DNA of 36,773 nt from an uncultured Pelagibacteraceae bacterium (GTDB taxonomy: Bacteria > Pseudomonadota > Alphaproteobacteria > Pelagibacterales > Pelagibacteraceae), in the NCBI GenBank assembly GCA_902634325.1, contig CACPJP010000008.1, forward strand, positions 1 to 36,773, written 5' to 3'. The notes below the pieces were generated by a model. It was given only the letters and a program-made list of their open reading frames with translations, was not told the origin of the DNA and searched no databases. Shown here piece by piece: positions 1 to 8,534 of this stretch; positions within the stretch are counted from its first letter, which is position 1; each line of letters starts with the position of its first letter. The translations under genes were made by a program, and so were the position numbers.

Positions 1-834
1 GGTGTAACCAATTACTTTATTGCCGGCTATAGCGGCTTCTATTGGAGGCATCCCAAGACCTTCAGACTGCGTAAAAGATAAAAAAATTTTAGATTTAAGC
101 AAATAATTAAAAACTTCTTTTTCTTTAAGTCTATGTATTTTTTTTATCTTCCATTTTTTTGAAATATGTTTTCTTAAAAAAAACATGACGGTTTCTGAAT
201 GTTGTGGCATTTTTCTTGGCATATAAGTTATCATGTTCTGCTTTTTAACTTTTGTATTGAATTTGTCTTTATCTACAGAAAGATTAACTTTCAAAATTTT
301 TTTTTCTATTTTCGGAAAAGAGACTTTAAGGCATTCAGTTATATCTCTGGAAACCGACATAATAAATTTAGCTTTATTATATGATTCTTCTAAGGTTTTA
401 TAATCGTTTGTGGGATTAAGAGCATATCCATTTAATGCAAAGATGGCATATGGAATTTTGTTATTTATAGCAATTTTTTTTGCTAAATGTGCAAATATCT
501 CTGGAAAAATCAAGAAATCTTTTTTTCTATCAAAAGTTAAATTTTTTTTAACTTTTATTTTGTTTTTAAACCAATTGGCTTTGTAAACTCTATCTACTGT
601 TAAATCTTCAAACTTCCATCCCGAATATTTATAATTATTTTTGATTTTAAAAACCTTATTTAATGAATTTTTCCACTTAGAAGATTTCTTTTTTTTTAAG
701 TGTAAAACTTGTGATGAAAAATTTTTTATTTTTAATTCATTAATTCTTTCACTGTGGTCGTATATAATTTTTACTCCTCCGGCTACTCCTTTTTCGGCAG
801 TGGCAATATAAATTATGTTTTTAAGTATTCTCAT
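1..834 (-). CDS. Glycosyltransferase, GT-B fold, C-terminus cut by window edge
   Basis: This reading frame is open from an ATG at 832-834 to the window edge, 278 codons with no stop. The N-terminus looks like the first beta strand of a GT-B glycosyltransferase (NIIYIATAEKG, then a GG turn at about residues 19-20). Near the edge is the donor-binding signature EGLGMPPIEAA (about 260-270), the E-G-x-G...E-A pattern typical of GT4-like enzymes. It probably transfers a sugar from an activated donor during surface polysaccharide or LPS assembly at the inner face of the membrane. The start codon lies only 4 nt after the CCA end of tRNA-Leu, so no conventional leader is possible if the tRNA is processed out. 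The neighbours are methyltransferases and two more glycosyltransferases. The family call is fairly safe; the sugar and acceptor are unknown. Confidence 0.75.
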   Translation of the reverse strand, partial: MRILKNIIYIATAEKGVAGGVKIIYDHSERINELKIKNFSSQVLHLKKKKSSKWKNSLNKVFKIKNNYKYSGWKFEDLTVDRVYKANWFKNKIKVKKNLTFDRKKDFLIFPEIFAHLAKKIAINNKIPYAIFALNGYALNPTNDYKTLEESYNKAKFIMSVSRDITECLKVSFPKIEKKILKVNLSVDKDKFNTKVKKQNMITYMPRKMPQHSETVMFFLRKHISKKWKIKKIHRLKEKEVFNYLLKSKIFLSFTQSEGLGMPPIEAAIAGNKVIGYT

Positions 835-838
835 ATCT

Positions 839-923
839 TGGTGCCCTCGGCCAGACTCGAACTGGCACTCCCTTGCGGGCAAGGATTTTAAGTCCTTTGT
901 GTCTACCATTTCACCACGAGGGC
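839..923 (-). tRNA. tRNA-Leu (anticodon UAA), CCA encoded
   Basis: Read on the minus strand, the 85-nt gene begins GCCCTCG (917-923 on the plus strand) and ends CGAGGGC-A-CCA, giving a perfect 7-bp acceptor stem with an encoded CCA. The anticodon arm is AAGGA-CTTAAAA-TCCTT, so the anticodon is TAA and it reads UUA. A long class II variable arm (CCC-GCAA-GGG) and a normal T arm (TTCGAGTC) confirm leucine. It sits inside a run of same-strand surface-polysaccharide genes: the FkbM methyltransferase stop is 48 bp upstream and a glycosyltransferase ATG is 4 nt downstream. Its 5' half is repeated at 1838-1880. I see no strong promoter in the 48-bp gap upstream. Confidence 0.97.
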
Positions 924-971
924 ATTAGTTGTTTTCTTAATGTTTATGTTAAGTTTTTATTTAAAACAAGA

Positions 972-1823
972 TCAATATTTAAAATATTTTTTATTATAAT
1001 AAATTTCATCAACGCCATACTTATCAAAATATGTAAATCCCTTATCTTTTAATAGATTGTTATAATTGTTTTGTTCTGGATAATTATTTTCAACAGATAA
1101 GACTTTGATATTAAAATAGTTGAAATCAATTGACTCTAAAATTCTCTTTTCTTCGCCCTCGACATCTATTGACAAATAATCAATAATTTTATTTTCTCCA
1201 ACGACTTCTTTAAATGTTGATGTTTTAATATCAAGCTTGTTCATTTTGGTTCTAGGATCTTTCATAATTATATCCAGGGTTTTTTTGTATTCATCCGTTA
1301 CTATTCCACTCATCTGAATGTATCCATTTATTACTTCAACAAATTCTTTATGATCATTTTTATTGCTAATTGCTCTATTAATGCAAATGCAGTTTCTGTT
1401 TTTTTTTAACTTTTCAAAATGAACGGGTGATGGTTCGATTGCTATGCCATTCCAGTCCATAAATTTTTCAAAATAAAAGCAATTGCTGCCATCAATTCCA
1501 TCAAAAGCTCCAATTTCAACAAAAAATCCTTTTTTTAAATTTTTAAAAAAATAATTTTTAATACATTTATCTTGTCCTGATTGAGAAAAAAAATCTTTAT
1601 TCAACTTAAAATATCTTTCAGCTTCCCATATTTTTCTTCTTAAAAACCCCCTGCCCTTTGTGTATTGATGTGAATAAACATTTGGAATTTTTTCCAAACA
1701 AGTATTGTAGATATAATGTGCTTTTTTTTTACCTTCTATATTTTCTTCGAAAAGTTTATTGGCAAAACTAATTACCTCACTGATGTCTTTACCTTCTAGA
1801 TATCGTAAATCTTCTTTTTTCAT
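972..1823 (-). CDS. FkbM-family SAM-dependent methyltransferase
   Basis: This 283-residue protein carries an FkbM/Methyltransf_21 domain. A YxSQxGQD-like lead-in (FFSQSGQD, about 79-85) precedes the SAM-binding motif FVEIGAFDGIDGSNC (101-115), then IAIEPSP (about 128-134) and YLSIDVEGEE (about 217-226). Members O-methylate sugars or other small groups on glycans and natural products. Here it probably decorates a surface polysaccharide, judging from the adjacent glycosyltransferases. The first 75 or so residues are a lysine-rich extension of no recognised fold. The start ATG is 14 nt downstream of an orphan tRNA-Leu 5' half, and the gene is flanked by direct repeats of that half, so recent acquisition is likely. 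A run of nine T at 1722-1730 encodes lysines. The family is clear; the substrate is unknown. Confidence 0.85.
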   Translation of the reverse strand: MKKEDLRYLEGKDISEVISFANKLFEENIEGKKKAHYIYNTCLEKIPNVYSHQYTKGRGFLRRKIWEAERYFKLNKDFFSQSGQDKCIKNYFFKNLKKGFFVEIGAFDGIDGSNCFYFEKFMDWNGIAIEPSPVHFEKLKKNRNCICINRAISNKNDHKEFVEVINGYIQMSGIVTDEYKKTLDIIMKDPRTKMNKLDIKTSTFKEVVGENKIIDYLSIDVEGEEKRILESIDFNYFNIKVLSVENNYPEQNNYNNLLKDKGFTYFDKYGVDEIYYNKKYFKY

Positions 1824-1837
1824 TTATTTTTACAGAA

Positions 1838-1880
1838 AAGGCTTTTAAGTCCTTTGTGTCTACCATTTCACCACGAGGGC
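1838..1880 (-). pseudogene. Orphan 5' half of tRNA-Leu
   Basis: On the minus strand this begins with the tRNA-Leu 5' acceptor strand (GCCCTCG, 1874-1880) and continues through the D arm into the anticodon loop. It is identical to the intact tRNA over 38 nt (1843-1880) and then matches 4 of 5 more. There is no T arm, variable arm or 3' acceptor strand, so it cannot make a tRNA. Past the break the sequence can still fold as AAAGG...CCTTT around the former anticodon loop, so a small stem-loop would sit just upstream of the methyltransferase ATG at 1823. It is a recombination scar and may act as the 5' leader of the downstream gene. Confidence 0.9.
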
Positions 1881-1891
1881 TTTTTTACGTA

Positions 1892-1897
1892 TTAATA
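1892..1897 (-). promoter_or_regulatory. Possible -10 element of the displaced tRNA-Leu promoter
   Basis: On the minus strand TATTAA lies 11 nt upstream of the first base of the orphan tRNA half. This is where a tRNA promoter would put its -10 to start transcription about 5 nt before the tRNA. The -35 is not convincing (CTTTTA or TTTTAT at 16-17 bp). If real, the old tRNA promoter now drives the FkbM gene. Confidence 0.3.
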
Positions 1898-1935
1898 CAC
1901 TAAATTTAAATTCATAAAAGAAAAAAATTTATAAT

Positions 1936-2730
1936 TTAAATTTTTTGAATAAAAATCAAACCGTTAGCATACGTGGGATGTATAAGTCTGTTTCCTGTTT
2001 TAAGTTCTTTAATAATTTTGAAATCGTTATTAAATTTATTTATAAAATCTAAAGTTGCCTGTTCAACCACTGGCATATTATAATCGTCTACCAGAATAAT
2101 AGCATCTTTTGCCAAATAATCTTTAACAATTACAAGATTGTCGTATTGATTTTTATAAGAATGTTCTCCGTCATAATAATAAAAATTAATTAATTTATTT
2201 TTCTTTTTCCAATTTTCAAAAAACATTTTATAATCCATATCAAAGAAAAAATGTTTTTCTTTATTTTTTATTTTATCAAAGTATTTAAAAAAATAGTTTT
2301 TGGCTCTAGAACTTTCGTATAAATTATCTAATTTTGGATTTCCTTCTTTGTAATCATGTGAGAAATTATCTACACCATAAACTTCACATTGTGTATTAAA
2401 CATTCCTGCAAACATACTAAAGCCCCTCCAAACGCCAACATTAATGTATACGCCATCATTTTTTAAATTTTTTGATATTTGGTTTATGATAAATCCAACT
2501 GAAATTCGCGACATTGTATCTACTAACAAAAGCTGTTGTATTGTATCAATATCTGTTTGAGAAATATTTTCAAATTTTGTATTAGAATCTATAAATTTTT
2601 TTTCATTTCCAATAAGCTTGAAAAGTCTTTTCTTGATTCTATAAATATAATCTTTACGTACATCTTGTCCTGGATGAATTTTAAAATTAATTTTTTTTAA
2701 GATTTCATTAATAAGTGTGCTTTTATTCAT
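1936..2730 (-). CDS. Class I SAM-dependent methyltransferase (Methyltransf_24/TylF-like)
   Basis: This 264-residue protein has a Rossmann methyltransferase core in its middle. The motif GVYINVGVWRGFSM (about 93-106) resembles the glycine-rich SAM loop, VYGVDNF follows as the acidic strand end, YYYDGEHSYKNQYDNL as the DG-H-Y motif, and AIILVDDYN as a late strand. The DGEHSY and VDDY pattern is typical of Methyltransf_24/TylF-type enzymes, which methylate sugars and related hydroxyls, often with a bound metal. It lies 26 bp downstream of a GT8-like glycosyltransferase in the same direction, so a role in modifying surface glycan is the simplest reading. The first 70 residues are lysine-rich and not recognised. 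The exact substrate cannot be told. Confidence 0.7.
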   Translation of the reverse strand: MNKSTLINEILKKINFKIHPGQDVRKDYIYRIKKRLFKLIGNEKKFIDSNTKFENISQTDIDTIQQLLLVDTMSRISVGFIINQISKNLKNDGVYINVGVWRGFSMFAGMFNTQCEVYGVDNFSHDYKEGNPKLDNLYESSRAKNYFFKYFDKIKNKEKHFFFDMDYKMFFENWKKKNKLINFYYYDGEHSYKNQYDNLVIVKDYLAKDAIILVDDYNMPVVEQATLDFINKFNNDFKIIKELKTGNRLIHPTYANGLIFIQKI

Positions 2731-2756
2731 GTTAACAATGAGACTAATATTATAAT

Positions 2757-3665
2757 CTACTTAAACCTTAAACTTTTTTGAATTTTTTTACCATCAAGTG
2801 TCTTTATTTCAATCTCAATATCTTTATTTAACCTCATGTCTTTATTATTTTTCCATATTCCTGCTGCTAGGTGTAAAATTCCTATTTTTTCATTGGGAAG
2901 AAAAGGTTCAACAAATGTATTTTTCTCTGTGTCATATTTTGGAAGTAGATGACTTGCTATCCAATTACATTTCAGTGGTAAAAATTCGACTTCAACATTA
3001 TCGTGATAAACTGCAATATTAATTGCTAAACCTTCTGAACCAAAAACTTTTCCTTTTGATAAAGTTTTTTTTAAGTTTTTTTGCCAAATCTCCCAACATT
3101 TAGAGTTTTTTTCTAATGAAAAAACACCAATATTGATGTGAGGTGCAAAAGCTAATTTTCTAGCAATATTGTCTTCGATGCCCGAGGATTTTGCGTGTTT
3201 GTAATTTTGAGATTTTATAACAGCAACCTTTCCTAACAACCATTTAACTTTTGACATGATCCTATATCCTGGTCCAATACTTTGAGTAATTCCAAGTTTT
3301 CCATTGTCACAAGCTTTAAAATATAAATCTACAGCTGACCAAGAATTTACCCATGCATCACAATCAATCCAAAGGTATTTGTCAAATTCAGGAAAATATT
3401 TAGGCAAGAATGCTCTTGAGACCTGACTTTTTAACCATTCTTTTTTTAAAACTTTATAACCGGGAACTTCTATATCCCATTGTGCTTTTTTTATTGAATG
3501 AACTTTGGGTTTTAAAATATCTACTTGATCTTTAGTTAACCCAGCATCTAAAACGCATATTGAAACATCTTTGTTTTCATCGTGAGCTTTTATTGAGTTA
3601 ATAAGTTCCTCAAGAAGTTTGAAGTAATTAAAATCTGCCAGAGTAACAATTGTTTTAGAGCTCAT
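2757..3665 (-). CDS. Glycosyltransferase, GT-A fold, GT8-like
   Basis: This 302-residue protein starts with a GT-A type strand (KTIVTLADFNYFKLLEELINSI), has SICVLDAGL at about 35-43, and carries the metal-binding DxD motif in YLWIDCDAWV (D101 and D103). A further conserved-looking patch is PHINIGVFSLEK (about 172-183), where GT8 enzymes have an acceptor-side N-x-G. It probably transfers a hexose or uronic-acid sugar from a nucleotide donor in the cytoplasm to a growing surface glycan. The stop of the preceding GT17-like gene is 3 bp upstream of the start, so the two are almost certainly cotranscribed. The DxD and fold are visible; the GT8 assignment is less certain, and the donor sugar is unknown. 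Confidence 0.65.
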   Translation of the reverse strand: MSSKTIVTLADFNYFKLLEELINSIKAHDENKDVSICVLDAGLTKDQVDILKPKVHSIKKAQWDIEVPGYKVLKKEWLKSQVSRAFLPKYFPEFDKYLWIDCDAWVNSWSAVDLYFKACDNGKLGITQSIGPGYRIMSKVKWLLGKVAVIKSQNYKHAKSSGIEDNIARKLAFAPHINIGVFSLEKNSKCWEIWQKNLKKTLSKGKVFGSEGLAINIAVYHDNVEVEFLPLKCNWIASHLLPKYDTEKNTFVEPFLPNEKIGILHLAAGIWKNNKDMRLNKDIEIEIKTLDGKKIQKSLRFK

Positions 3666-3668
3666 ATT

Positions 3669-4559
3669 TTATTCCAACCATTGTTTATATTTGTCTAAAT
3701 TATTTTTAATATAAGTTGGCAATTCATCTGTTGTTGTAACTGTAAGCTCGTCTCCCCCGCTAAATTTTGATTTTTTCATATCTGCTCTCAGATTATACAC
3801 TGGTTTTTTACTCATTATCATTTTTTGAATTTTATCTTCTCCTATCGGTTCAAGATCATATTCTCTGTGATGAAGGTATGAAGTTAATTTTTTTTCAATA
3901 TTTTTTGCTGTTTTCATATATGAAAAATGCCATCCACCATTCTCTATGAAGTAGATATCTTGGTATTTTGTTCTAGAAAATAACGAATCAACTCTCCAGA
4001 AAGGGTATTTTTTGTCTTTTATATTCCTTAACCATTGGGGTGATAAAAGATTAACTTTTCTACATGCTTTTGTTCCAAACCATTCAAAGGAATCGAGCTT
4101 CAGGTTAAATTTATAATAAAACAATTTTTGTTTAAAAAGTATTATTTTATTTTTAATATTTTTTAAACTATTTTTCTCTAAATTTGGAATTTCATCTAAA
4201 TCTGATATAAGAACAATGTCTATGGGATCGGCTTCTTTTAGCCCTTGTTGAATACAGTCTCTCTGAAAATTTTCTCTTTTTGCAGCATTAAGTATATATT
4301 TTGAATTCTTAGTATCCTCATCATCTTTATCAGAAATTTTAGAAATTCCTGGTGGTTCTTGGTCTACAACGATATAAGAGATTTTTTTCTCAAATTTTTT
4401 AAATTTATTAATATCAAATAATAATTTTCTTTTCTCTCCACTATGAGTATAGGAGCTTTCTACAACAACAAATTTATCAACATAGTCATTCAAGTAGTTT
4501 AGACGAAAATCTAATAACATTTCTTCGTCAAAAAACATAAAACAATCAAAAATTTTCAT
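3669..4559 (-). CDS. Glycosyltransferase family 17-like protein
   Basis: This 296-residue protein resembles GT17 (beta-1,4-N-acetylglucosaminyltransferase III-like). It opens KIFDCFMFFDEEMLLDFRL, followed by VDKFVVVESSYTHSGEKR (about 27-44), ENFQRDCIQQGL (about 96-107) and the acidic motif VLISDLDEIPN (about 116-126). A late GWHFSYM completes the pattern. Bacterial members sit in polysaccharide clusters. It is cytoplasmic, with no membrane segment. The ATG overlaps the stop of the upstream GGCT-like gene as ATGA (4 bp), so it is translationally coupled to a non-glycan gene; this is the seam between the island and the core. Family call fairly sure; sugar unknown. Confidence 0.8.
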   Translation of the reverse strand: MKIFDCFMFFDEEMLLDFRLNYLNDYVDKFVVVESSYTHSGEKRKLLFDINKFKKFEKKISYIVVDQEPPGISKISDKDDEDTKNSKYILNAAKRENFQRDCIQQGLKEADPIDIVLISDLDEIPNLEKNSLKNIKNKIILFKQKLFYYKFNLKLDSFEWFGTKACRKVNLLSPQWLRNIKDKKYPFWRVDSLFSRTKYQDIYFIENGGWHFSYMKTAKNIEKKLTSYLHHREYDLEPIGEDKIQKMIMSKKPVYNLRADMKKSKFSGGDELTVTTTDELPTYIKNNLDKYKQWLE

Positions 4560-4981
4560 CTAACTTTTATTTTTTTATTCCTTGAAATAACAATATAATT
4601 ATTTTTATAACCACAGTCTTTGTATCCTTGTATAATTTTATTCAAATATATTTTAGCAGGTGGATTAGGCTTTGTTTTTTTTGGCATATAATAAAACATC
4701 ACTTTTTTTCCAAAAAGTTTAAAATATTTCTTTATGTACATAATCGGAAAATCTTCATAAACATCTAATACTTTTTCATCATTTTTAGATATCTTGTATA
4801 TAGCTCCTAAAACGGTACTGTTTTTTTTTCTTTCTACATCAGCAACCCCTCCACCATAATACATATGCCTAAAAACAAGTTTATAACCTTTTAGTTTATG
4901 ACATCCTATGTACTTGGAATCTTTACATCGTTTTTTCATTTGTTTCTGATAAAGATTACTTCCAAAAGCAAAATACAGCAT
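4556..4981 (-). CDS. Gamma-glutamylcyclotransferase-like (GGCT/AIG2 fold) protein
   Basis: This small protein (141 residues) has the two marks of the GGCT/AIG2 fold: YFAFGSNL at residues 3-10, which forms the substrate-binding loop, and VLDVYEDFP, where E76 matches the general-base glutamate. Family members release 5-oxoproline from gamma-glutamyl amino acids or peptides such as glutathione; some act on other gamma-glutamyl amines. The closest type from sequence alone is the short bacterial single-domain form. It starts on the last base of the cinA stop (TAATG overlap) and ends inside the start of the GT17-like gene, so it is coupled on both sides. Function beyond the fold is an inference. 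Confidence 0.75.
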   Translation of the reverse strand: MLYFAFGSNLYQKQMKKRCKDSKYIGCHKLKGYKLVFRHMYYGGGVADVERKKNSTVLGAIYKISKNDEKVLDVYEDFPIMYIKKYFKLFGKKVMFYYMPKKTKPNPPAKIYLNKIIQGYKDCGYKNNYIVISRNKKIKVR

Positions 4982-5742
4982 TAAACTCCTCTAAAAATTT
5001 TTATTTTTTTATTTCTTAACATCTTAATAATAGCTTTGTGGCAAGATTGTAAACTAATTTTATTTGAAGATCTTATAACAATTGAAATGCCTATTTTTCC
5101 TAGCCTAAAAAAAGGATAGCTGCCTATCTCAACAAATTTTTTATATTTTTTTTGAACTGCCTCTAATCCTTTTGCAATATTACTTTCTATTGTTTCTACA
5201 GTTACTGTTAGACTGTAGATTTTTAATCCTAGTTTTAAATATTTTTTTAAGTTACCAATCATAGATCTTAGTATTGAAGGAACTCCAGGAAGACAGATAA
5301 CATTTTTAATTACAAACCCAGGGGCTGCACTAGAAGGGTTGAAAATTAACTTTGAACCTTCCGGCATTTTTGCCATTTTTTTTCTTGGATCATTAAAATT
5401 TTTTTTTCCATAATATTTTTTCAATATACTGTAAGCTTCTTTGTGGTAAGTATATTTTTTTTTGAAAGCTCTTGATATCGACTGAGAAGTAATATCGTCA
5501 TGCGTTGGTCCTATTCCGCCTGTTGTTAAAACGTAATTATAACTTTTGCTTAAAGCTAAAACGCTTTTTATTATTTTCTTTTCAAGATCTGGAATGATTC
5601 TAACTTCTACAACCTTGATTCCTAAACTGTTATTAAGCCATGAAGCTAAATAAGAAACATTTTGATCCGTCGTTCTTCCCGATAAAATCTCATTGCCAAT
5701 AACTAATATTGCAGCAGTAATTTTTTTATTTTTTCTTACCAT
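4981..5742 (-). CDS. CinA N-terminal-type (MoCF/COG1058) protein
   Basis: This 253-residue protein has the molybdopterin-binding (MoCF) fold seen in the N-terminal half of CinA. Visible are AAILVIGNEILSGRTTDQN (about 10-28), VLTTGGIGPTHDDITSQS (about 71-88) and a short FNPSSAAPGFVI plus CLPGVPSILRSM segment. The family includes ADP-ribose pyrophosphatases that act with a nicotinamide-nucleotide amidase. The C-terminal PncC amidase domain of full CinA is absent and there is no room for it, so this is the stand-alone form common in alphaproteobacteria. It is divergent to sfsA across 20 bp and heads a minus-strand run into the surface-polysaccharide genes. The competence name is historical and does not imply uptake of DNA. 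Confidence 0.85.
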   Translation of the reverse strand: MVRKNKKITAAILVIGNEILSGRTTDQNVSYLASWLNNSLGIKVVEVRIIPDLEKKIIKSVLALSKSYNYVLTTGGIGPTHDDITSQSISRAFKKKYTYHKEAYSILKKYYGKKNFNDPRKKMAKMPEGSKLIFNPSSAAPGFVIKNVICLPGVPSILRSMIGNLKKYLKLGLKIYSLTVTVETIESNIAKGLEAVQKKYKKFVEIGSYPFFRLGKIGISIVIRSSNKISLQSCHKAIIKMLRNKKIKIFRGV

Positions 5743-5762
5743 AATTTGATAATATTAAAAAA
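5743..5762. promoter_or_regulatory. 20-bp divergent start region between the cinA-type gene and sfsA
   Basis: Only 20 bp separate the two ATG codons. The sequence is pure A/T apart from one G, with GATAAT readable toward sfsA (about 9 nt before its ATG) and TATTAT readable toward the cinA-type gene (6 nt before its ATG). Neither gene has room for a ribosome binding site and a normal leader unless its promoter lies inside the other gene. Back-to-back -10 elements with very short leaders are possible. Confidence 0.35.
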
Positions 5763-6473
5763 ATGGATTTTGAGAACGAATTAATACTAGGAGTTTTAAT
5801 AAAAAGATACAAGCGATTTTTTGTGGATATTAAGTTGGAAAATAAAATTATTACTGCACACTGCCCAAACCCTGGATCAATGTTTAAGCTTTTAAAAAAA
5901 GGAAATCCTGTATGGATAACAAAATCTGACAATGAAAAAAGAAAACTTCAATATACTTTGCAAATTATAGAGGTTAATAAAATTAAATTTTGTGTAAACA
6001 CTCACATAACAAATAAAATAGTTCAGGAATCACTTGAAAAAAAACTAATAAATGAATTAAAGGAATATAATCTTGTTAGACCAGAAAAAAAATTTGGAAC
6101 TAATACTAGATTTGATTTTCTTCTTTACAACACCAGGAAAGACAAAAAGGCATTTCTAGAGGTAAAAAGTGTTTCCCTTAGTAGAAAAGATGGTCATGCT
6201 GAATTTCCGGATGCAGTAACAAGCAGAGGTAAAAAACATTTAGAAAGCCTTCTGTCTGCAAATAAACAGGGATATGAGAGTTATTTGATGTTTCTAATTC
6301 AAATAGAAAATTGCAAATCTTTTGGAATTGCATCAGATATAGATCCTGAATATTCTAAAGTTTTTAAGGATGCTTTAAAAAAAAATGTTAAGTTGCTTTG
6401 TTATGATTGTAAATTTTCTAACAAAGGAATAGAAATAAATAACAAAATAAAAACTTTATTAAATGACAGATAA
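5763..6473 (+). CDS. sfsA: SfsA family protein
   Basis: This 236-residue protein matches SfsA over its length. LILGVLIKRYKRFFVDI is the N-terminal OB-like part, AHCPNPGSMFKLL (about 38-50) is the hallmark N-P-G-S motif, and GTNTRFDFLL...AFLEVKSVSL (about 112-141) looks like a nuclease-fold D...E-x-K core. DGHAEFPDAVTSRGKKHL follows. SfsA is described as a DNA-binding protein affecting sugar fermentation in E. coli; its fold suggests a nuclease, and its true role is not settled. It opens a plus-strand run that continues into map and the purine genes, and overlaps map by 11 bp. Confidence 0.9.
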   Translation: MDFENELILGVLIKRYKRFFVDIKLENKIITAHCPNPGSMFKLLKKGNPVWITKSDNEKRKLQYTLQIIEVNKIKFCVNTHITNKIVQESLEKKLINELKEYNLVRPEKKFGTNTRFDFLLYNTRKDKKAFLEVKSVSLSRKDGHAEFPDAVTSRGKKHLESLLSANKQGYESYLMFLIQIENCKSFGIASDIDPEYSKVFKDALKKNVKLLCYDCKFSNKGIEINNKIKTLLNDR

Positions 6474-7239
6474 AATGCTTGAAGCTTTTGATGGAACAAG
6501 AAAAGCCGGATCTATAGCCTCTGGAGCTTTAGATGAAGTTGCAAAAATTATAAAACCAGGAATAAAAACCGACGATATTGATAAATTGTGTTTTGAATTT
6601 ATAAATGACAACCATGCATATTCTGCGCCATTATTTTATAGGGGTTATCCAAAATCTTGCTGTACTTCTACAAACCATATTGTTTGTCATGGGATACCTA
6701 GAAATAAATTTTTAAAAGAAGGAGATATAGTTAATGTTGATGTAACGGCACAAAAAAATGAGTGGCATGGCGATACTAGCAGGATGTATTTTATTGGAGA
6801 AGTTTCAACTAAAGCAAAAAAATTAGTAAGAACTACATACGAAGCAATGATTAAATCTATAAAAATTTTAAAAGATGGTATTCAGATTGGAGATATAGGA
6901 TATGTTATTCAAAACCATGTTGAAGCAGCAGGATTCTCGGTTGTTAGAGATTTTTGTGGACATGGAATAGGAAGAAATTTTCATGAGCCTCCAAATATAT
7001 TGCATTACGGAGAATCCAAGACAGGAGAGAAGTTAAAAACTGGTATGATTTTTACAATTGAACCAATGATAAATGAAGGAAATTATGAAACAAAGATATT
7101 AAATGATGGTTGGACAGCAGTTACTAAAGATAAAAAGTTATCCGCACAATTTGAACACACTATTGGTATAACTGATAATGGTTATGAAATATTTACTTCT
7201 TCAAAAAAAGAATTAGATTTTCCACCATATAAAATATGA
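6463..7239 (+). CDS. map: Methionine aminopeptidase type I
   Basis: This enzyme removes the initiator methionine from new proteins. All five metal ligands of the family are in place: D93 (VNVDVT), D104 (HGDTSR), H167 (CGHGIG), E200 (FTIEPM) and E231 (QFEHTIG). The length of 258 residues is normal for type I without a zinc-finger extension. The start overlaps sfsA by 11 bp and the end overlaps purB by 4 bp. The ATG giving MTDKMLEAF is used here; a second ATG four codons on would also serve. Confidence 0.97.
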   Translation: MTDKMLEAFDGTRKAGSIASGALDEVAKIIKPGIKTDDIDKLCFEFINDNHAYSAPLFYRGYPKSCCTSTNHIVCHGIPRNKFLKEGDIVNVDVTAQKNEWHGDTSRMYFIGEVSTKAKKLVRTTYEAMIKSIKILKDGIQIGDIGYVIQNHVEAAGFSVVRDFCGHGIGRNFHEPPNILHYGESKTGEKLKTGMIFTIEPMINEGNYETKILNDGWTAVTKDKKLSAQFEHTIGITDNGYEIFTSSKKELDFPPYKI

Positions 7240-8534
7240 TAGAGAGATATTCAAGAAAAGAGTTAAAACGAATATGGGAAGACCAGAATAAGTATAAAAT
7301 CTGGTTGGAAGTAGAACTTGCTGCAGCTGAAGCAATGGAAAAACTTAAAATAATTCCCAGGGGTGTTGTCAAAAAGGTAAAATCAAAATCAAAAATTAAT
7401 GTAAAAAAAATTGCATCAATAGAAAATAAAGTTAGACATGATGTAATTGCTTTTCTAACTTCAATAACTCAAAAAACGGGAAAAGAGGGAAGATTTTTAC
7501 ATAAAGGCATGACTTCTTCTGATGTCTTAGATACCACTTTTAATCTACAACTAAAACAATCAGGATTCATTTTATTAAATGATATTGAAAAATTATTAAA
7601 ATCTATAAAAAAACAATCTATTAAACATAAATACACTCTATGCATAGGTAGAAGTCACGGAATTCATGCAGAACCAACAACATTTGGTTTAAAAATGTTA
7701 ACTTTTTATGAAGAATTTTCTAGAAATTATGACCGTTTAGAAAATGCCATTAAAGAAATATCAACATGCGCAATATCAGGTGCGGTTGGAACTTTTGCCA
7801 ACGTTGATCCAAGAATTGAAAAATTTGTTGCAAAAAAATTAAAATTAAATGTGGAACCAGTATCTACACAAGTTGTTCCTAGAGATAGACATGCTTATTT
7901 TTTTTCTGTATTGGGAATTATTGCCAGTTCCATAGAAAGATTTGCTATAGAAATACGTCATTTACAAAGAACAGAAGTTTCAGAAGTTGAAGAATTTTTC
8001 AAAAATAAACAAATGGGCTCTTCGGCAATGCCTCATAAAAAGAATCCGGTACTCAGCGAAAACCTTACAGGTTTAGCTAGGCTTATAAGAGGAAATGTAA
8101 TGCCTGCTTTGGAAAACGTAGCGTTATGGCACGAGAGAGATATTTCTCATTCAAGTGTGGAAAGGAATATAGGACCAGATTCTACTATAACTTTGGATTT
8201 TGCATTAAACAGACTAAATGAAGTAGTGGAGTCAATGAAAATCAATTATAAAAACATGAAAAAAAATTTAGACTTAACTAAAGGTTTATTTTTTTCACAA
8301 AGAATTTTGTTAGAGTTGACTTCAAAAGGTATAAAGCGAGAAGTAGCCTACAGAATGGTTCAAAAATGTGCTCTCAAATCTCTTGAAAATAACACTTCTT
8401 TCCATGATACTTTGCTTAAAGATAAAACGATTATGGGGAAAATATCTGTTAGTAATTTGAAAAAATTATTTGATTTCAATTATCACACAAGAAAAATTGA
8501 TGTAATTTTCAAAAGAGTTTTGAGGAAAAAATGA
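7236..8534 (+). CDS. purB: Adenylosuccinate lyase
   Basis: PurB cleaves SAICAR to AICAR and adenylosuccinate to AMP, releasing fumarate each time. The 432-residue protein shows the family marks: TSSD at 93-96, the catalytic histidine region [13 protein letters not shown] (138-150), and the superfamily signature [11 protein letters not shown] (261-271) with its mobile loop. It belongs to the short PurB type. It overlaps map (ATGA, 4 bp) and purC (ATGA, 4 bp), so translation of three consecutive genes is coupled. The next gene, purC, makes its SAICAR substrate. Confidence 0.97.

Follow-up and report, generated by a model that had tools for sequence, protein, structure and literature searches.

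A 957-bp unit on contig CACPJP010000008.1 of an uncultured Pelagibacteraceae bacterium holds a single FkbM-type methyltransferase gene and is bordered by an intact tRNA-Leu(TAA) gene and a second copy of the 5' half of that gene. We favour, with a probability of roughly 0.75, the interpretation that this unit is an integrase-less gene cassette inserted site-specifically at the anticodon-loop core of tRNA-Leu(TAA) by a recombinase acting in trans. The window, that is, the whole stretch of 36,773 nucleotides analysed here, is one entire contig, and its source is a draft genome (61 % complete, 25 contigs).

The tRNA-Leu repeat and the FkbM unit

When the window was searched using ARAGORN, a single tRNA gene was observed, tRNA-Leu(TAA) at 839-923 on the minus strand. 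It forms the attR-like right end of the unit and is present in the relatives examined. A repeat finder reported a 46-bp pair (881-926 and 1838-1883) with 96 % identity, a spacing of 957 bp and two mismatches (885/1842 and 924/1881). Within this pair, 886-923 and 1843-1880 are identical over 38 bp, and 881-884 is matched as well, so that the similarity extends to 1838 with one mismatch. The identical part corresponds to tRNA positions 1-38, from its first base to the last of the anticodon loop; the chance of such a 38-bp match within 36.8 kb is negligible. The displaced half (1838-1880, minus strand; positions 1-38 identical, one mismatch in positions 39-43) forms the attL-like left end. The anticodon stem-loop of the intact tRNA (881-897, minus strand; AAGGA-CTTAAAA-TCCTT) is the putative strand-exchange core, since half copies across the family match the tRNA to position 38 and then diverge. 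Its counterpart in the half copy (1838-1854) reads AAGGA-CTTAAAA-GCCTT.

The sole open reading frame of at least 80 aa between the repeats (972-1823, minus strand) lies within the 957-bp period and encodes a 283-aa protein matching Pfam Methyltransf_21/FkbM (E-value 8e-13). Its start codon is 19 bp past the crossover point. No integrase was found between the repeat copies, and a PF00589 search of the assembled, 61 %-complete genome returned no match. The extent of the repeat, its span within the tRNA, the FkbM gene as only content and the missing integrase had all been described in a first-pass annotation of this DNA, and each description held. Its remark that duplication of the 5' half is the rarer kind agrees with Islander, in which 5'-fragment islands account for 159 of 3,919 mapped tRNA islands, about 4 % (PMC4383910).

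The two copies differ in their 5' flanks. The 48 bp between FkbM and the intact tRNA (924-971, minus strand), which presumably contain the tRNA promoter and were presumably imported with the unit, do not resemble the sequence 5' of the half copy (ungapped extension of 0). The region upstream of the half copy (1881-1920, minus strand) is the probable original 5' flank of the tRNA, including its promoter region, and most of its best matches, at 22-25 of 35 bases, are sequences flanking tRNA-Leu genes in congeners. The flank of the half copy resembles those of congeners and the flank of the intact copy does not, with scores that are modest and not decisive. A promoter scan gave chance level only, and the one terminator-like match is located within the tRNA. 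The assembly contains one half copy; stacking was observed in relatives.

Among the 30 congeners, 29 lack an FkbM match at an E-value of 1e-20 or lower, and in the remaining one, genome G006, a weak match of 39 % lies on a different contig. The closest homologues elsewhere in the family (48-55 %) belong to another genus and lie in stretches in which no tRNA was found.

A family-wide cassette hotspot

The tRNA was recovered in 20 of the 31 genomes of the genus, and six of these 20 (the window and five others) carry a 5'-half copy. In congeners, the half copies always lie upstream of the intact tRNA, at distances of 1.8-6.9 kb in the five, which is the order that the proposed insertion geometry demands. 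The genes between the repeats differ from genome to genome: a DUF4910 gene and a formyltransferase-like gene in G015, a trypsin-like protein in G006 and G016, genes read as pfk and pyk in G005, and an ABC-transporter set with an amylase-like enzyme in G026 (the pfk, pyk, nadK and ABC genes were named by reading the sequence, without a profile search). In G003 the site is nearly empty, and the glycosyltransferase family 8 (GT8) gene ends about 22 bp before the tRNA. Comparison with relatives had been proposed in the first-pass annotation, and the outcome that was to refute its proposal, the same FkbM gene in all relatives, was excluded by the congener searches and the locus comparison. Its suggestion of a minimal cargo unit, sited where tRNA-Leu is recombined, was largely right, as congeners carry other cargo or nearly none. 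The lack of FkbM in congeners and the nearly empty site in G003 led us to reject an old, fixed rearrangement.

In the family, 304 of 397 genomes gave a match to the tRNA and about 109 (hand count) gave a second match, of which a few are 3' halves or second full copies. We analysed 81 loci: the window, 19 congeneric loci and one other that were not picked for a half copy, and 60 that were picked for a second match. Owing to this selection, the 63 occupied loci of the 81 do not represent a frequency. Units in these loci number 91 and range from 0.94 to 15 kb (mostly 1-5 kb, median about 2.3 kb). A locus has at most three half copies within the fetched stretches, and some genomes have more. Cargo genes are mostly oriented with the tRNA (219 against 49 opposed). 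The 81 loci also contain 37 other tRNA genes (Thr, Tyr, Gly and Val); these served as a control, and none showed an extra half copy. The single-contig genomes G032, G061 and G068 have the same architecture, as do many named records from the family. The tRNA-Leu site is thus a general cassette hotspot of the family, with defence, sugar transport, glycolysis and secreted-protein genes as cargo.

Several cassettes (L060, L065, L081, L082, L087 and L111) encode restriction-modification or other PADLOC-matched proteins, which suggests that part of the hotspot serves in defence. At L118 of G181 (528-4184), six very similar pilin-like genes follow each other in a run (FTLIELLVVVAIIGILAAVGVVAYN) adjoining stacked half copies. 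At L064, L074 and L101, a 3'-half copy of tRNA-Leu lies downstream of the tRNA, the mark of a different integrase class.

The locus has cinA-side core genes on one side and, in relatives, nadK on the other, and the left-flank genes (purine genes, M24 peptidase, sfsA, cinA and GGACT) are common to 39-56 loci. GT17 and GT8 are essentially restricted to the genus of the window among these loci. The GT8 gene of the window (2757-3665, minus strand) is the last gene common to congeners; it is 71-84 % identical in those compared and marks the left edge of the variable stretch. Between it and the half copy lies a Methyltransf_24 gene (Pfam; 1936-2730, minus strand), probably an earlier insertion, and perhaps one that lacks any recognisable half copy. 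Both this gene and the adjoining FkbM gene occur only in the window among the 81 loci. The first-pass annotation had placed the unit at the edge of a surface-polysaccharide island. Glycosyltransferases do flank the site in this genus, but a specific island edge is not supported, as the site is a general cassette hotspot. The neighbourhood is also distinct from the canonical SAR11 O-chain island, which sits between rRNA genes (PMC11898729).

Leaders, exchange between genera and candidate helpers

When the sequences following the half copies were compared, 65 of 91 were found to contain AGT(C/T)N6AGT(C/T) within 40-100 bp, and such motifs elsewhere numbered 99 in 1.41 Mb. The AGTC repeats have a period of 10. 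This motif lies no more than 45 bp from the core in 60 of 91 half copies, with a gap of 23 bp in 44 and of 13 bp in 13. When a stricter motif was applied to genome contigs, at least 120 stretches matched, with a core-motif gap of 23 bp in 126 of 127, and all 80 among the matches listed belong to Pelagibacteraceae, Pelagibacterales or Pelagibacter. A leader of about 175 bp is common to the 42 different cargo types aligned, most of them with AGTC repeats. It ends in two co-varying 11-bp repeats, followed by the start codon. In L038, L060-L094 and others, these 11-bp direct repeats are alike within a cassette and different between cassettes of unrelated cargo; a promoter-like stretch follows them, often with an MKK signal-peptide-like start. 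The window unit is not a leader-bearing cassette as defined by AGTC about 23 bp past the core and the leader of about 175 bp. It belongs with the leaderless units, several of which, with distinct cargo, start no more than 25 bp from the crossover.

Sequence comparison indicates that leaderless units do move, and that sugar-transport and glycolysis units have crossed genera. Between G005 and G344, a member of another genus, Pyk is 97 % identical, and NadK, CinA and SfsA are 53 %, 65 % and 61 % identical, respectively. The sugar-transport unit of G026 is 89-99 % identical in G344 (NadK 58 %) and 79-94 % identical in G351 (NadK 57 %). In addition, the tRNA allele of the window's genus occurs in a half copy of G344. 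By analogy, the movement of these other leaderless units between genera supports mobility of the window unit.

Phages and a satellite-like element are the candidate helpers. The attP sites of T7-like cyanophages (P-SSP7/S-TIP37) match the first half of tRNA-Leu (PMC8776855), and a tRNA-Leu fragment has been reported in a pelagiphage (PMC3861242). In a phage collection, the best informative matches to the window half were HTVC105P, HTVC109P and phage S35-C6, all of which carry an unannotated tRNA half of 45-50 bp directly after the integrase gene and before the RNA polymerase gene. Viral contigs contain further integrase-like open reading frames (221-297 aa) beside the tRNA half, and a second type has a recombinase of 515-545 aa after attP. 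Viral contigs with the exact tRNA allele of the window contain whole tRNA genes in place of an attP and were therefore set aside.

The viral contig L119 (IMGVR_UViG_3300025897_001356, 1-7799) is of this second type: it carries the tRNA half and, after it, a 545-aa tyrosine recombinase, and it also encodes a primase-helicase-like protein. Its 7,799 bp with a direct terminal repeat indicate a circle of about 7.7 kb. The Pfam integrase match of the recombinase is below the curated cut-off (E-value 5e-5), and residues R373, K400, R485, H508 and Y518 are invariant in nine relatives. Its AlphaFold model (predicted local distance difference test, pLDDT, 72.6; predicted template modelling score, pTM, 0.42) gave Foldseek E-values of about 1e-6 to 1e-5 against the Tn1549, lambda and XerH recombinases, with a template modelling (TM) score of about 0.3 by query. 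No relative of this recombinase was found in the annotated phage collection. In G247 (L161, 9766-17542 on the reverse complement), a 7.8-kb element syntenic with L119 fills precisely the interval from a half copy to the intact tRNA, and a more distant 10.2-kb element is integrated in G181. We infer that elements of the L119/G247 type are phage satellites. Over the 45 bp shown, the sequence that follows the core in the integrase-less unit at L087 is identical to that in the G247 element, which suggests that one recombinase serves both. The 5'-half signature is expected from the integrases of the marine T7-like phages and a SAR11 satellite-like element because their attP carries the tRNA 5' half; the first-pass annotation had considered the type of integrase and missed these.

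Mechanism, alternatives and known systems

In the mechanism that we propose, an incoming circle would carry a copy of the tRNA 5' half (attP) at the right end of the unit. Strand exchange would leave the 5' half of the host upstream, at 1838-1880, and the imported 5' half, joined to the 3' half already resident, would restore an intact tRNA at 839-923. A Pelagivirus-type phage or a satellite-like element whose attP is the same tRNA half would supply the recombinase in trans; the assembled part of the window genome contains neither. The imported part would have to supply the tRNA promoter, and the displaced promoter would point into FkbM, which may be expressed from it. Later transfer between lineages could also proceed by homologous recombination across the tRNA, and such exchange may account for part of the movement.

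Several observations weigh against a trans-mobilised cassette. Neither the AGTC repeats nor the leader found in most family cassettes accompany the half copy of the window, and therefore no recombinase can be assigned to the unit. The unit is known from one genome only, and its own mobility is argued from the behaviour of others. No FkbM relatives were found in the viral contigs, and matches in phage records are distant, partial and limited to three records. No clear match was found for the donor of the imported flank (924-971), and position 39 of the half copy is unlike the tRNA (GCCTT for TCCTT). Finally, NadK may evolve faster than Pyk, which would inflate the contrast between genera; CinA and SfsA (57-66 %) agree with the NadK contrast.

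It is unlikely that a larger integrated phage or satellite once occupied the site and decayed to the present unit through deletion of its integrase and most other genes. Autonomous elements do integrate at this site (G247 and G181), and no PF00589 integrase was found at the loci in the genomes checked, as decay predicts. However, the units are small, recurrent and neatly bounded, the close starts of several leaderless units at the crossover are not expected of random deletion, the same leaderless units occur in different genera, and FkbM is unlike phage remains. We consider it slightly less probable still that half tRNA, cargo and tRNA were swapped by a double crossover through homologous recombination alone, without a site-specific recombinase in the window event. 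This would fit the leaderless units, which have no recognisable recombinase arm sites, the half copy with the window-genus allele inside G344, and the many loci in which the repeat runs 60-120 bp upstream of the tRNA, enough homology for such a swap. In the window, by contrast, the repeat is shorter than 50 bp and the two 5' flanks differ, and the first bounding of units at tRNA position 38 is left unexplained. An assembly or amplification artefact, which a draft of this completeness and contig number might invite, is very improbable, as the architecture recurs in many independent genomes, including the three single-contig ones, and in the named records.

The cassette interpretation of the window unit places it closest to additive flexible genomic islands. 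tRNA cassettes with partial tRNA repeats are already known from the islands with tRNA-fragment repeats in Ca. Actinomarinales (PMC7771536) and from fGI-2 of Ca. Methylopumilus (PMC10872708), and exchange between genera has been reported in Actinomarinales (PMC7771536), as at the SAR11 site. The window unit shares with them the insertion at a tRNA, the partial tRNA direct repeat at the far end, and the different content or nearly empty site in relatives. It differs in that the 5' half of tRNA-Leu(TAA) is repeated, whereas in Methylopumilus it is the last 20 bp of tRNA-Lys (PMC10872708); moreover, most SAR11 units share AGTC repeats and a leader, candidate helpers have the same attP, and the window unit is a single gene.

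In T7-like marine podoviruses (P-SSP7/S-TIP37, PMC8776855; HTVC105P, HTVC109P and S35-C6), attP is likewise the first half of tRNA-Leu, adjoins the integrase gene, and leaves a 5'-half copy on integration. Pelagiviruses are about 41-43 kb, however, and a Pelagivirus prophage would show integrase, RNA polymerase and structural genes between its att sites; the window unit has FkbM alone, with neither a phage gene nor an integrase. Prochlorococcus tycheposons are also tRNA-bordered cargo elements of streamlined marine bacteria, but they span 4-200 kb and carry a tyrosine recombinase in the described forms (PMC10872708), in contrast to 957 bp and none here. Integron cassettes resemble the SAR11 units in being integrase-less, holding one to few genes, being stacked at one site and possibly having an external promoter. 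They differ in that the repeated site here is a tRNA core and no integrase was found at the array, no search having been aimed at attC or IntI. Islander demands an integrase within the interval and a length of 2-200 kb (PMC4383910), and so the window unit and many of its kind would be rejected by it. No description of the SAR11 tRNA-Leu(TAA) system, its leader or the satellite-like element was found in the literature searched, coverage of which was partial, and the satellite-like element is apparently undescribed.

Streamlined SAR11 genomes have few recognised mobile elements, yet their gene content is strongly variable. It is about an even chance that SAR11 has an integron-like system without an integron, in which integrase-less cassettes, most with a shared attachment-and-promoter leader, are inserted and exchanged at the tRNA-Leu(TAA) 5' half by phage or satellite recombinases acting in trans. 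Such cassettes would spread genes for the cell surface, defence, sugar uptake and glycolysis among species and genera, and the displaced promoter could express the newest gene. A tRNA-Leu hotspot of small, largely integrase-less units, some of them shared almost unaltered by different genera, would offer a concrete route for the variation of gene content in SAR11, and would link that route to pelagiphages and a satellite-like element.
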